Source of the DNA: Limosilactobacillus fermentum
GTDB taxonomy: Bacteria; Bacillota; Bacilli; Lactobacillales; Lactobacillaceae
DNA length: 64,000 bases
Reading direction: 5' to 3'
Assembly (NCBI RefSeq): GCF_013394085.1
Contig: NZ_CP040910.1
Location: 124,001 to 188,000 of the forward strand
The notes under the pieces were generated by a model, which worked only from the letters and a program-made list of their open reading frames with translations, was not told the DNA's origin and did not search any database. Shown in pieces: positions 21,801-63,178 of the stretch. The position numbers were made by a program, and so were the translations under genes. How positions within the stretch are numbered: the first letter of the stretch is position 1; the number at the start of each line of letters is the position of its first letter.

Positions 21801-21973
21801 TAGATCAAGACGCCCTGGGTGAAGCCCTGGATACCTTGCAAAGCCTTGACGGCAACCGAATGATTGGGATCATCAGCCACGTGACCGAGCTGGAGGAGCA
21901 GATCCCCGATCAGTTACAGGTGATCGCGGAGAATGGGCGCAGCAAGGTTAAATATCACCTGGCAACGGACTAA
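18869..21973 (+). CDS. sbcC: Nuclease SbcCD subunit C
   Basis: 1034 aa Rad50-type ATPase. Walker A GDTGSGKTTIFDAM near residue 35; long coiled coils rich in Q, A, E and K; zinc hook CPIC near the middle (EGEACPICGSTTHP, about residue 515); signature SLSGGESFLTALALALALG and Walker B ALFVDEGFGSLD near the C terminus. Start ATG 18869 overlaps the sbcD stop and has AAAGGAGGAGG upstream. The stop codon directly touches a Noc-binding palindrome. Confidence 0.94.
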   Translation: MKPLKLTMHYFGPYEDTTIDFTRFDASPLYLIAGDTGSGKTTIFDAMCVALYGNASNERRSAEMFRSDFATPKQVTEVTFLFEHKGVTYQVYRRPRQVLTMTRGKGEKQYDPKVSLVYPVGAENPRELTKITEVNQFVQDLLGVNASQFRQLIILPQGEVQRFLMADSKTKEEILTTLFQTQLYTNWVTKLDERAKSMRDQTQDITSQLKVLMGQVDGVSDQLELDQWQVAVGDLLTEKKAELRAVTEQVTTAQKAADQLQAQLTAERRLAEDHAALVSCETQQVELKERAPQIKRLADENEETAWAQQHQTAYHEWQAGTTKLADLTKQQAACEQKQAAVKVRVQELTQVAERLKEQEPAVQERQRQVANIREKLPLFEEVAALSKRLEKERRAQVEQERTVSDQTSALTKLQAELDRVDQELQAAPDLTQAAVTIATRVQQVVRWQQAVTALGEQAKELANQEQALRDLNAQLAEAKKTAQAAQADLKEKKKAHLAAMIATLASELEEGEACPICGSTTHPHVATAVQTGQEVTEVTLDAAQAKVTKAETTLATLTTRQANQDSQLEKGRATFQDELATLCQAVTSPAGDLEAATAAVAEAVAALDHDRQELQNAQAKETENQQRQVSLTKQIQAGQAKYQELQAAVNEGRLNVNQTQTELVNKQGQLPAELPDLASAERWLKEEEQALADFASQQTQNQDALSRAQTQLTQLTTTSQQLADSAKATAAEVDQRKRELTAALAERQAAWEVFERALARVPELAARQREVNDYRQRLASLADQRQRLVEQIAGRPKPDVEKTAGQLKKAQVKLDQLKGAVIEQGNALTRIKEIKQQVEKKAAKQGDTERQLRELSSLCALLKGQGGTQLGLQRYVQRHYFTEVLAVANQWLAKLTHGRYQMHLDGEADFKGRQNKNGLEIYADDDYAGKARKVQSLSGGESFLTALALALALGEVVQRHHGGVEIEALFVDEGFGSLDQDALGEALDTLQSLDGNRMIGIISHVTELEEQIPDQLQVIAENGRSKVKYHLATD

Positions 21974-21986
21974 TTTCCCGGGAAAT
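21973..21986. promoter_or_regulatory. Noc-binding site (NBS), perfect
   Basis: ATTTCCCGGGAAAT is identical to the 14-bp palindrome known as the Noc-binding sequence in Bacillus subtilis. It starts on the last base of the sbcC stop codon and ends three bases before the -35 element of serS. The noc gene itself is at 37316. Confidence 0.8.
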
Positions 21987-24041: not shown

Positions 24042-24055
24042 ATTTCCCGGGCAAT
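24042..24055. promoter_or_regulatory. Noc-binding site, one mismatch
   Basis: ATTTCCCGGGCAAT differs from the Noc-binding consensus ATTTCCCGGGAAAT by one base. It lies in the gap just after the trpS stop. Confidence 0.55.
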
Positions 24056-36441: not shown

Positions 36442-36461
36442 ATCATTTCCCGGGAAATGAT
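36442..36461. promoter_or_regulatory. Noc-binding site, perfect, upstream of rsmG-noc
   Basis: ATCATTTCCCGGGAAATGAT is a perfect 20-bp palindrome with the Noc-binding core ATTTCCCGGGAAAT at 36445-36458. It lies about 100 bases before rsmG, the gene immediately ahead of noc. Confidence 0.85.
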
Positions 36462-36559
36462 TCCCGCCAGAAAGCCGGAGATCGCTTGAAACAACGGGCT
36501 TATTAAGGTAAAGTGGTAGGGTAACGTGGAACAAGATGTTTCACGGAAAGGAAAAAGAT

Positions 36560-37297
36560 ATGAACCCAGAAGAATTTCGTCAAGCCCTCCTTGACCACGG
36601 CATTGCGCTGACGGACGCCCAGATGGCGCAGTTTGCGCGTTACTATCAGCTGCTGGTTCAAACCAACGAACACTTAAACCTAACGGCGATTACGGCCGAA
36701 ACAGAAGTTTACCTGAAACACTTTTACGATTCTTTGACCGGGGCCTTCGCCTACCCTAAGCTCCAAAGCCAAGCCCTGACTTTGTGCGACATTGGGGCCG
36801 GGGCGGGTTTCCCGTCCTTGCCGCTGAAGATCGCCTTTCCCCAGTTGGAAGTCACGATCGTTGATTCCTTAAACAAGCGGATCAACTTCTTGGCCGACCT
36901 GTGTGATGACCTCGGCTTGACCGGGGTGCACCTGGTTCACGACCGGGCCGAAACCTTTGCGGCCAAGGGAAGCCCGTACCGCGAACAGTTCGACTTAGTA
37001 ACTGCCCGGGCGGTGGCCCGCTTGGTGGTGCTCGGCGAGTTGTGCCTGCCAGCGGCCAAGGTCGGTGGGGCCTTTTTGGCTTACAAGGCCAGCGCCGTTA
37101 ATGATGAGTTAAAATTGGCGACCGGAGCGATTAACAAGCTGGGTGGCCAGGTGGCGGGGACGACCAAGTTGACCCTGCCAACCAAGCCGGAAGCAGAGGA
37201 GCGCAACCTGGTGGTGATCGATAAGGTCGCTAAGACGCCGGGGAAGTATCCGCGGCGCCCCGGGGTACCCGCTAAGAAGCCACTGATTAACGTCTAG
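36560..37297 (+). CDS. rsmG: 16S rRNA (guanine-N7)-methyltransferase RsmG (GidB)
   Basis: 245 aa SAM-dependent methyltransferase. Motifs include [39 protein letters not shown] (SAM site), [13 protein letters not shown] and ARAVARL. It methylates G527 of 16S rRNA. Start ATG 36560 follows GGAAAGGAAAAAG; an earlier ATG adds eight residues and lacks a site. The gene order rsmG-noc-parB is the classic origin-proximal arrangement of Firmicutes. Confidence 0.94.
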
Positions 37298-37315
37298 CAA
37301 TTGAGGAGTAGTAAA

Positions 37316-38251
37316 ATGGCATTTTCATTGTTTAACATTGGGAAGAGCAAGGAGCCGGTTAAAAACCAAGTCGTGGAGGTTCCGCTGGCGCAGATCGTGC
37401 CCAATCGCTACCAACCCCGCCAGGTTTTTGACCAAACGGCGATCCAAGAATTAGCCCAAACGATAGATGAACACGGGCTCTTGCAACCGATCATCTTACG
37501 CGAATACGAAACTGGTAAGTACGAAATCATTGCCGGGGAACGGCGCTTCCGGGCGATGAGCCTGTTGAATTGGACCAAGGCCCCGGCGATCGTCGAAAAG
37601 ATGAACGACCAGGAAACGGCCTCCTTGGCCCTGATCGAAAACCTGCAACGTTCGCAGTTAAGCCCGGTCGAAGAGGCCCAGGCTTATCAACAGTTGATGG
37701 AACTCAACAAGCTGACCCAGTCGGCCCTGGCCAAGGGGATGGGGAAGAGCCAGTCCTTTGTCGCTAACAAGTTGCGGCTCTTACAACTGATTACGCCGGT
37801 GCAAAACGCAATCATGGACCACAAGATTTCCGAGCGCCACGGGCGGGCCATGCTCAGCCTTAGCGAGGACCAACAACGCGACATCTTAATGAAGATCGTT
37901 AATAACGACTGGACGGTCCGCCAGACCGAAGACGAGATCGCCCGGATGCAGGGTAAGCCGGTGCCAAGCGAAGTGGAGGCCCAAAAGCAACGCGAACTCT
38001 TTGGCCTCGACGAAGAGTTAACGGTCAAAAAAGACGACGCGCAGGATCAACCGGCTAAAAAGAAGAAGGCGCCGAAGAAAACCAAGAAGGTGGCCGGCCG
38101 GGTCAAGGTATCCGACCCACGGATTGCCGTCAACACGATCAAGGAATCCTTGAAGTTAGTTAACGATAACGGCTTTGAGACCAAGGTCAAGGAAACCAAG
38201 ACCGCTAACGGGGTGGAGTTGACGATCACGATCGTTGCCCCGACGGACTAG
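37316..38251 (+). CDS. noc: Nucleoid occlusion protein Noc
   Basis: 311 aa ParB-family CTPase. N-terminal amphipathic stretch MAFSLFNIGKSK (membrane targeting in Noc), ParB N-domain with PNRYQPRQVF and the CTP motif GERRFRA at 74-80, then a helix-turn-helix of the Noc type (ALAKGMGKSQSFVANKLRLL), unlike the RPYIANYLRLL of the neighbouring ParB. The C-terminal linker is lysine-rich. Noc binds ATTTCCCGGGAAAT sites, spreads, tethers DNA to the membrane and blocks division over the nucleoid. Four such sites are in this window. Start ATG 37316 follows GAGGAG. Confidence 0.88.
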   Translation: MAFSLFNIGKSKEPVKNQVVEVPLAQIVPNRYQPRQVFDQTAIQELAQTIDEHGLLQPIILREYETGKYEIIAGERRFRAMSLLNWTKAPAIVEKMNDQETASLALIENLQRSQLSPVEEAQAYQQLMELNKLTQSALAKGMGKSQSFVANKLRLLQLITPVQNAIMDHKISERHGRAMLSLSEDQQRDILMKIVNNDWTVRQTEDEIARMQGKPVPSEVEAQKQRELFGLDEELTVKKDDAQDQPAKKKKAPKKTKKVAGRVKVSDPRIAVNTIKESLKLVNDNGFETKVKETKTANGVELTITIVAPTD

Positions 38252-38264
38252 TGGGGGCGATGCA

Positions 38265-39098
38265 ATGAGTGATGCAAGGCAACTGACCGCCCCGCCCGGC
38301 CCGGGGGAAGTGGTTAGGGAGTTGGCGGTGGATTCAATCCGCCCCAACCCCTACCAGCCCCGGCGCACCTTTGACCAGGAGGGCTTAGCGGAGTTGGCCC
38401 GGTCAATCGAAGCGGCGGGGGTCTTTCAGCCAATCATTGTCCGGCGCCCGGACCCCAATTTGAACCGCTACGAATTAATTGCCGGAGAACGGCGCCTGCG
38501 GGCGACCAGGATGACCGAACGCAAGACGATTCCGGCGATTGTCCGGGTCTTAGACGACCAGACGATGATGGAAGTGGCGGTCCTAGAGAACTTGCAACGC
38601 GAGGACCTGAGCCCCTTAGAAGAGGCCCAGGCCTACCAGACCTTGATTGAACGCTTGAACCTGACCCAGGCTCAGGTGGCGGCCCGCTTAGGCAAGAGCC
38701 GCCCCTACATCGCGAACTACCTGCGCTTGTTAGGCTTGCCCGAAGAGGTTAAGCAGATGCTGGCCAGTGGCGAGCTATCGATGGGCCAGGCCCGGACCCT
38801 CCTGGGGGTCAAGGACGAACGACGGCTAGTTGAACTAGCCAAGCGGGTCGCAAACGAGGGGCTGACCGTCCGTCAGCTAGAAGAGATCGTGGCCGGGATT
38901 AACAAGAAGGGGCGCCAAAAGCCAGTGGTTAAAAGTGCCAACCCTTACTTACGAGAGGCTGAGAGTCAACTAGCGGGTAAGTTGGGCACTAAGGTCAGCT
39001 TTCAGGCCAAGCGCCGCGGCGGCAAGATCGTGATCCCCTATGGTTCCAATCAGGATTTAAACCGAATTTTGGAACTGCTAGGGGTGCACTTTGATTAG
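38265..39098 (+). CDS. parB: Chromosome partitioning protein ParB (Spo0J)
   Basis: 277 aa. ParB N-domain (IRPNPYQPRRTFDQ, GERRLRA at 74-80), canonical helix-turn-helix VAARLGKSRPYIANYLRLLGLP, and C-terminal dimer domain. It loads at parS and spreads as a CTP clamp to organise the origin. ATG 38265 follows GGGGGCG; a TTG 30 bases upstream lies inside noc. Usually a parA (soj) gene lies between noc and parB; here only 13 bases separate them. Confidence 0.93.
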   Translation: MSDARQLTAPPGPGEVVRELAVDSIRPNPYQPRRTFDQEGLAELARSIEAAGVFQPIIVRRPDPNLNRYELIAGERRLRATRMTERKTIPAIVRVLDDQTMMEVAVLENLQREDLSPLEEAQAYQTLIERLNLTQAQVAARLGKSRPYIANYLRLLGLPEEVKQMLASGELSMGQARTLLGVKDERRLVELAKRVANEGLTVRQLEEIVAGINKKGRQKPVVKSANPYLREAESQLAGKLGTKVSFQAKRRGGKIVIPYGSNQDLNRILELLGVHFD

Positions 39099-44786: not shown

Positions 44787-45524
44787 ATGGGACTATTTAA
44801 ACATCATTATACTGAATCCATCGACACGATGGATAACGGGGCCATGTTAATCACGCTGGCCGACCCGAAGAGCGGCCCGGCCGAACAGTTCCGGACGATC
44901 CGGACCAACATTCACTTCATGAGCGTTGACCGGCCGCTAAAGACGGTTGCCTTTACCTCCTCGGGAATCTCGGAAGGGAAGTCCACGGTAATGGCCAACG
45001 TGGCAATCGCCTGGGCCCAAGAAGGTAAGCAGGTCCTCTTGATCGACGCCGACTTGCGCCGGTCGACTCTACACGCGACCTTTGGCCTAAGCAACCAAAA
45101 GGGGTTAACCACCGTTTTGACTGGGGACAGTAACGAAGTCGACCTTAGCAACGTGGTGCAAAAGAGTGGGGTTGAAAACCTGGAGGTCTTAACGGCCGGT
45201 CCAGTACCACCGAACCCATCGGAGCTGTTGGGTTCTCAGCGGATGCAGTCCTTTATTAATGGGGTGCGGGAAGCCTACGACATAGTGGTCTTAGACGTGC
45301 CGCCGATGCTGCAAGTAACCGATACCCAAGTGCTATCCAGCAACCTGGACGGGGTGATCTTAGTGGTTCGCCAGGGGGTGACCCAAAAGGCAGCCATTCG
45401 CCGGGCGGTGGAAATGTTGAAGATTTCCCAGGCCAACGTCTTAGGGTACGTGATGAACGACGTTTACGATGACGACGCTGGTTACGGTTATGGTTATGGC
45501 TATGGCTACGAGGACGAAAGGTAA
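44787..45524 (+). CDS. Tyrosine-protein kinase (BY-kinase, CpsD/EpsC type)
   Basis: 245 aa. Walker A SSGISEGKSTVMANVA, Walker A' LLIDADLRRSTLHATFG, Walker B YDIVVLDVPP. The C-terminal autophosphorylation cluster is a regular YG repeat (GYGYGYGYGYEDER). Works with the Wzz-like protein and the PHP phosphatase in a phosphorylation cycle. AGGGAGG precedes ATG 44787. Confidence 0.93.
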   Translation: MGLFKHHYTESIDTMDNGAMLITLADPKSGPAEQFRTIRTNIHFMSVDRPLKTVAFTSSGISEGKSTVMANVAIAWAQEGKQVLLIDADLRRSTLHATFGLSNQKGLTTVLTGDSNEVDLSNVVQKSGVENLEVLTAGPVPPNPSELLGSQRMQSFINGVREAYDIVVLDVPPMLQVTDTQVLSSNLDGVILVVRQGVTQKAAIRRAVEMLKISQANVLGYVMNDVYDDDAGYGYGYGYGYEDER

Positions 45525-63164: not shown

Positions 63165-63178
63165 ATTTCCCGGGAAAT
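63165..63178. promoter_or_regulatory. Noc-binding site, perfect
   Basis: ATTTCCCGGGAAAT, identical to the sites at 21973 and 36445, between the repeat and azlC. Confidence 0.8.

Follow-up and report, generated by a model that had tools for sequence, protein, structure and literature searches.

Noc-binding sites and paired, everted parS half-sites at the rsmG-noc-parB promoter of Limosilactobacillus fermentum: likely docking sites for Noc and ParB

In Limosilactobacillus fermentum, the operon that encodes the nucleoid occlusion protein Noc is preceded by a copy of the Noc-binding sequence (NBS), which raises the question of whether this copy serves nucleoid occlusion alone or also lets Noc act on its own genes. 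We analysed a 64-kb stretch of DNA (the window), namely bases 124001-188000 of a single-contig genome of 1,887,974 bp in which dnaA lies at genome position 59768; coordinates are window positions unless marked as genome positions. The original prediction placed perfect copies of the 14-mer ATTTCCCGGGAAAT at 21973-21986, 36445-36458 and 63165-63178 and a copy with one mismatch at 24042-24055, and all four were found there. At up to two mismatches, the window holds four matches against 0.41 expected, a number that none of 100 shuffles reached. The perfect 20-bp palindrome around the 36445 copy (36442-36461) was also recovered, with the rsmG start (36560) 98 bp downstream. It had been claimed that all of the sites are intergenic. 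This holds for the copies at 36445, at 24042 (5 bp beyond the trpS stop) and at 63165 (downstream of a D-Ala-D-Ala carboxypeptidase-like gene, whose best family match falls under its cut-off), but the copy at 21973, between an sbcC-like gene and serS, is not fully intergenic because its first base also belongs to the TAA stop codon of that sbcC-like ORF. This last copy, which is kept in Limosilactobacillus gorillae, does lie near a likely serS -35 box (TTGCCA) as proposed, at a distance of two bases and not three. We predict that the palindromes of the window are very probably genuine docking sites for Noc.

The window was also said to encode Noc, and the 311-aa product of the gene at 37316-38251 (forward strand) matches TIGR04285 at 323.3 bits against a cut-off of 315, in two stretches. 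The nearest solved structures are Noc chains (7nfu, 7ng0 and 7ol9), and the nearest named relative by Noc is L. gorillae, at 89.6% identity. Jalal et al. 2020 describe four positions at which Q-K-K-R selects NBS and R-T-A-G selects parS (PMC7383237). The residues here, at positions read from alignments, are Q146, K152, Q157 and R174, three of the four being as in the published set. At the third position, Q is found in this protein and in that of L. gorillae; the remaining seven of nine aligned proteins carry K or R. At the N-terminus, where the family has an amphipathic membrane helix, MAFSLF is invariant in 9/9 proteins of the genus, and the hydrophobic moment of residues 1-10 is 0.35 for Noc and 0.29 for ParB, a measure that barely separates the two.

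Across the whole genome, we found 17 perfect copies of ATTTCCCGGGAAAT and none of the reversed control pattern, while at up to one mismatch there were 36 copies against one for the reversed pattern, above chance. The spread is not even. Perfect copies lean to the origin (KS p 0.008), with a mean relative origin-to-terminus distance of 0.33 where 0.5 is expected, 14 of the 17 in the origin half and one in the terminus quarter. The largest gap spans 462 kb, with its midpoint 12 kb from the position diametrically opposite the origin; as a lone test this gap was not significant (p 0.19), and the single-mismatch copies alone gave no significant origin bias (p 0.12). Nor do the perfect copies lie mostly inside genes: 12 of the 17 are intergenic, a thirteenth is the single-base stop overlap, and four fall within ORFs called by a simple gene caller, walK and uppS among them. 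The intergenic excess has a binomial p of 0.004 against the caller's coverage of 64%, although the count is rough, as the caller covers only that share of the window. Among the 19 single-mismatch copies, seven carried an identical central change (CCCAGG/CCTGGG), and seven others were altered at the fourth base from an end. The NBS may tolerate both kinds of change.

The perfect 14-mer was present in all 50 Limosilactobacillus genomes searched, at 1-27 copies each, and the reversed control in none. Eight of the 17 copies of the L. fermentum genome have a counterpart at the corresponding position in L. gorillae. Around five of these, the 120 bp of flanking sequence are only 45-60% identical, whereas the 14-mer itself is perfect. 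When NBS loci were clustered across nine genomes of the genus, ten positions recurred in at least three of them, three positions in four genomes and seven in three. It appears that NBS positions are under selection yet turning over. The copy at the noc promoter is one of the seven positions found in three genomes. We rejected the idea that it is the sole NBS conserved in the genus, since nine other positions are kept in three or four of the nine genomes; other positions are conserved equally or better.

A survey of 201 Lactobacillaceae genomes tied the 14-mer to the protein. Genomes whose best TIGR04285 E-value was no worse than 1e-84 were counted as Noc-positive, a threshold set after inspection of the E-values. 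The 14-mer was found in 82 of 109 Noc-positive and 1 of 92 Noc-negative genomes, with the reversed control in 0 of 201, in counts that ignore kinship. The single Noc-negative genome with the 14-mer is an 87%-complete assembly, and 27 of the 109 Noc-positive genomes have no perfect copy, perfect copies alone being counted. Contrasts within genera agree with the family-wide association: genus g20 has five Noc-positive genomes with 1-4 sites and two Noc-negative genomes with none, and genus g33 has two Noc-positive genomes with 3 and 4 sites and five Noc-negative genomes with none.

As read from its sequence, this is a standard Noc/NBS system, because there are 17 perfect copies, they are biased to the origin, the 14-mer tracks Noc and the residues that select NBS are kept. 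The proposal that nucleoid occlusion operates here with the DNA code of B. subtilis is supported by site counts, origin lean, co-occurrence and specificity residues alike. The result was expected and is now demonstrated genome-wide: the Noc code would extend to lactobacilli and follow the Noc protein genome by genome. Noc would load at the ~17 or more mostly origin-side sites and slide as a CTP clamp, the sliding Noc would tether site-bearing DNA to the membrane, and division would be blocked until the site-poor terminus arrives at midcell.

We then come to the copy in front of the operon. The probable promoter of rsmG-noc-parB (36486-36514, forward strand) consists of TTGAAA (36486-36491), a 17-bp spacer and TAAAGT (36509-36514), which match the consensus and are conserved in relatives. 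It precedes rsmG (36560-37297, forward strand), the first gene of the operon, which encodes a 16S rRNA methyltransferase (TIGR00138). From the end of the 14-mer to the -35 box there are 27 bp. In 32 Limosilactobacillus leaders, two of which (L115 and L116) are identical over the bases covered, an NBS lies 112-120 bp before rsmG, perfect in 12 and with a single mismatch in two. The remaining 18 of 32 leaders have four or more mismatches and the promoter NBS is absent from them. None of 6400 shuffled leaders came within two mismatches. No NBS within one mismatch was found upstream of rsmG in the loci of other genera, of which 420 bp to ~4 kb were examined. Wherever the leader has the NBS (14/14), the gap to the -35 box is 25-28 bp and the promoter spacer is 17 bp, and this fixed spacing favours the suggestion that Noc may act on its own operon. 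Noc loaded at this NBS would lower transcription of the operon when it is plentiful.

The alternative is that all of these copies are plain nucleoid-occlusion sites, in which case the one before rsmG-noc would have no regulatory role and the half-site pair described below would be unrelated to ParB. The absence of the promoter NBS from more than half of the congeneric leaders is what this account would lead one to expect, as is the existence of other NBS positions at least as well conserved. It sits poorly with a spacing that stays within 25-28 bp in every leader concerned, though the flanks of the promoter NBS are merely 45% identical even to L. gorillae. We regard this alternative as unlikely, and prefer a regulatory role for the promoter copy.

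The leader holds a second element just past the -10 box. It has the form GTGAAACA-N-TGTTTCAC, that is, two parS half-sites in the reverse of their order in parS. The pair, which we propose as a ParB operator, spans 36526-36544 and begins 11 bp after the -10 box, with GTGGAACA (36526-36533), AGA and TGTTTCAC (36537-36544); the left arm is the GTTCCAC form of the parS half read on the opposite strand. The pattern GTGRAACA-N2-9-TGTTYCAC was present in 47 of 50 genomes of the genus, exactly once in 42 of them, against 0 of 50 for the control. Among same-genus genomes at least 90% complete and little contaminated, it was found in 40 of 41, and the complete genus genome G227 gave no match. Copies fetched by pattern match lay directly before rsmG in 12 of 12 cases. 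A looser 14-letter pattern for the family had a high control and was left out of the counts.

Allowing up to two mismatches in each arm and a total of three, we found the half-site pair in 140 of 183 rsmG leaders and in 29 of 3660 shuffled ones. A further count used only distinct leaders, none of them fetched through the element. In this set it occurs in 33/33 Limosilactobacillus leaders, 54/57 leaders of other Noc-positive Lactobacillaceae, 8/19 leaders of Noc-negative Lactobacillaceae (L301 being doubtful; absent in 11/19) and 1/30 outgroup leaders (Bacillus, Listeria, Staphylococcus and others). The Noc-free relative behind L301 (G137) carries TGTTTCACGTGGAACA, which resembles parS, upstream of rsmG. 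The spacing between the 7-base halves is 3-9 bp in 68 of 73 distinct elements. Substitutions among 78 distinct elements fall mostly at two positions of the arm, the fourth (T or C, as in GTTYCAC) and the inner eighth. From the end of the -10-like hexamer to the left arm there are 10 or 11 bp in 39 of the 78, while the distance from the element to the rsmG start ranges over 9-86. The distance to the -10, kept in half of the elements, and the variable distance to rsmG together favour a DNA element linked to the start of transcription. Among the matches listed in the open-licence literature, covered as titles and abstract openings, there was no account of this operator or of NBS in lactobacilli.

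An inverted repeat at this position could also act through the mRNA, as a 5'-terminal hairpin controlling stability or translation, with its resemblance to parS being secondary. The L. fermentum leader does fold well (-10.4 kcal/mol, z -4.4), loop length varies among elements, and the L. gorillae element has a compensatory G-C pair. These points are outweighed by the pattern of change across the 78 distinct elements, where 29 changes break a pair, five give G-U and one is compensatory. Reshuffled arms gave 31.0 ± 1.6 breaks (p 0.17); the arms vary independently, with no RNA covariation. In addition, complementarity of the inner and spacer ends was no higher than chance, the distance that is kept in half of the elements is the one to the -10 and not the one to the rsmG start, and Rfam gave no family at gathering level over the leader. 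Rfam matches over the promoter region all fell under their gathering scores and were dropped as chance; elsewhere in the window, Rfam identified a T-box leader (RF00230) at 2521-2758. We therefore disfavour the hairpin as the main reading for lack of covariation, despite the good fold here, and consider it quite unlikely.

If the pair is a DNA element, its arms suggest the reader. The arms are parS halves and stand within an operon that encodes ParB, which counts against treating the pair as unrelated to that protein, and the T and C variants at arm position 4 are both half-site forms reported for ParB. The parB (spo0J) gene (38265-39098, forward strand) directly follows noc, the two being adjacent at 37316-39098; parA is present at this place in most relatives and missing here. 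The parB product carries R146, Y152, G157 and G174, of which R146 and G174 are parS-type residues (R-Y-G-G set, read from the alignment). The element precedes rsmG-parA with no intervening noc in Noc-negative genera. It also precedes rsmG-noc-parB with no parA in the operon, in L. fermentum, L. gorillae, L. caccae, L. gastricus and L. equigenerosi as well as in G130, G197 and Ligilactobacillus agilis. Its presence with or without noc or parA points to ParB, the DNA-binding product in common, as the candidate reader. Against ParB stand the 11 of 19 Noc-negative leaders that lack the element and one further genome: G050 (leader L085) has ParB with parS-type residues, Noc and NBS, lacks ParA, and showed neither a parS within one mismatch nor the half-site element in its leader. 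A regulator encoded elsewhere could in principle read the GTGAAAC/GTTTCAC pair. The single copy in 42 of 50 genus genomes suggests an operon-specific reader instead, and the variable spacing is ill-suited to a rigid dimer site; we hold this alternative to be distinctly improbable and keep ParB as the candidate.

Published work bears on how ParB might behave at such a pair. Kawalek et al. 2020 found Pseudomonas aeruginosa ParB in narrow peaks at single half-sites of both forms, GTTCCAC and GTTTCAC; when expressed in a heterologous host, five other ParBs also bound half-sites, and B. subtilis ParB showed no such binding in ChIP-seq (PMC7022226). Half-site binding is described as persisting in ParB variants likely impaired in CTP use (PMC10419367). 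Antar et al. 2021 report that parS halves set 1-8 bp apart bind ParB and do not stimulate CTP hydrolysis, which 2-5 bp spacers inhibit; the authors took hydrolysis as an indirect measure of gate closure (PMC8494293). Their spacer data concern halves in normal order, not everted ones. Since the half-sites of the element are both everted and set apart, we infer that ParB would be held there as a static repressor and would not close into a sliding clamp. Held 11 bp downstream of the -10, it would lower transcription of the operon when plentiful.

Canonical parS is nearly absent from the genome. We found no perfect parS, and the one single-mismatch copy, at genome position 303774, lies 244 kb from dnaA within a terminator-like hairpin. 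A degenerate palindrome with three mismatches to parS, GTTTCATATGAAAC, occurs at genome position 45081, 14.7 kb from dnaA. An alternative parS for the genus was considered and rejected, as this palindrome was the one found near the origin here and 298 kb of noc-locus DNA gave one relaxed match. A Soj-like ParA had no match in the whole genome at E 1e-20; the AAA_31 matches were a 250-aa frame with an EPS tyrosine kinase match and a 578-aa frame. The gene at 44787-45524 is of the EPS/capsule tyrosine kinase type and is among the few ParA-fold matches in the genome. CpsD, a kinase of this type, has been linked to ParB in Streptococcus pneumoniae (PMC7022226).

Loss of ParA is repeated in the family. 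Whole-genome absence was assessed in 201 genomes, including those of L. fermentum and L. gorillae as well as G130 and G197, and 17 had no ParA match better than 1e-60; eight g5 genomes lack ParA. The median number of parS copies within one mismatch was 1 in ParA-less genomes and 3 in the rest (Mann-Whitney p 1e-7, ignoring kinship). The five parA-bearing genus members of the 201-genome draw had 0, 0, 2, 1 and 2 copies. They too are parS-poor, so parA loss is not the sole factor. Between L. fermentum and L. gorillae, ParB has diverged more than Noc (81.0% against 89.6% identity). In 35 pairs of parA-bearing genomes whose Noc proteins are at least 85% alike, pairs that are not independent, ParB was never more than 0.3 points below Noc; it was below Noc in four pairs of the parA-less L. 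caccae with parA-bearing species, and not in the parA-less pair G130/G197.

The best reading of the locus, as far as sequence can tell, is that Noc and ParB, two paralogous CTP clamps, both have predicted docking sites at their own promoter. We lean towards the joint reading, in which nucleoid occlusion works through the NBS and the operon is wired to its own products through the NBS and the inside-out parS, and consider it fairly probable. The fuller claim is tentative and, in our estimate, falls somewhat short of an even chance: that the everted parS is a dedicated and widely kept ParB operator of the Lactobacillaceae which uncouples binding from CTP-clamp loading, with dual autoregulation by Noc in part of Limosilactobacillus. 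If it is true, one protein would combine two roles, that of a centromere clamp where it meets parS and that of a static autorepressor at the promoter of its own operon, and in parA-less, nearly parS-free species the everted operator may be the principal ParB site still conserved. The element is a natural experiment on parS geometry and its effect on ParB, with the same half-sites inside-out and spaced at a repressor-like position. Should ParB bind without loading, the setting of chromosomal par and noc levels could be tested with a 19-bp element, and lineages that have repeatedly lost parA while retaining parB and the element provide material on ParB acting alone. The finding on the 14-mer is right and was largely expected; a promoter at which Noc and ParB each have a likely docking site is the new arrangement of known parts.

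Compared with the Noc-NBS systems of B. subtilis and Geobacillus, the one described here has the same Noc above the curated cut-off, 14-mer core, Q/K/R residues and sparse sites on the terminus side, the last as described for those systems (PMC7383237, PMC8429893). It differs in that Q157 replaces K at the third specificity residue, an NBS keeps a constant spacing to the promoter of the noc operon, and parA is missing. S. pneumoniae likewise retained ParB after losing parA (PMC7022226); it has four parS, whereas here there is no perfect parS and one single-mismatch match. In plasmid par autoregulation and KorB repressors, as here, partition proteins act on their own or other promoters (PMC7022226), but this operon is chromosomal, the proposed operator is an everted parS, and the missing ParA cannot repress. 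With P. aeruginosa, the locus shares the GTTTCAC and GTTCCAC half-sites, which are bound there without wide spreading (PMC7022226, PMC10419367). While half-sites are scattered by the hundreds in that genome, here a single promoter carries two of them in inside-out order, in most genomes as one copy.
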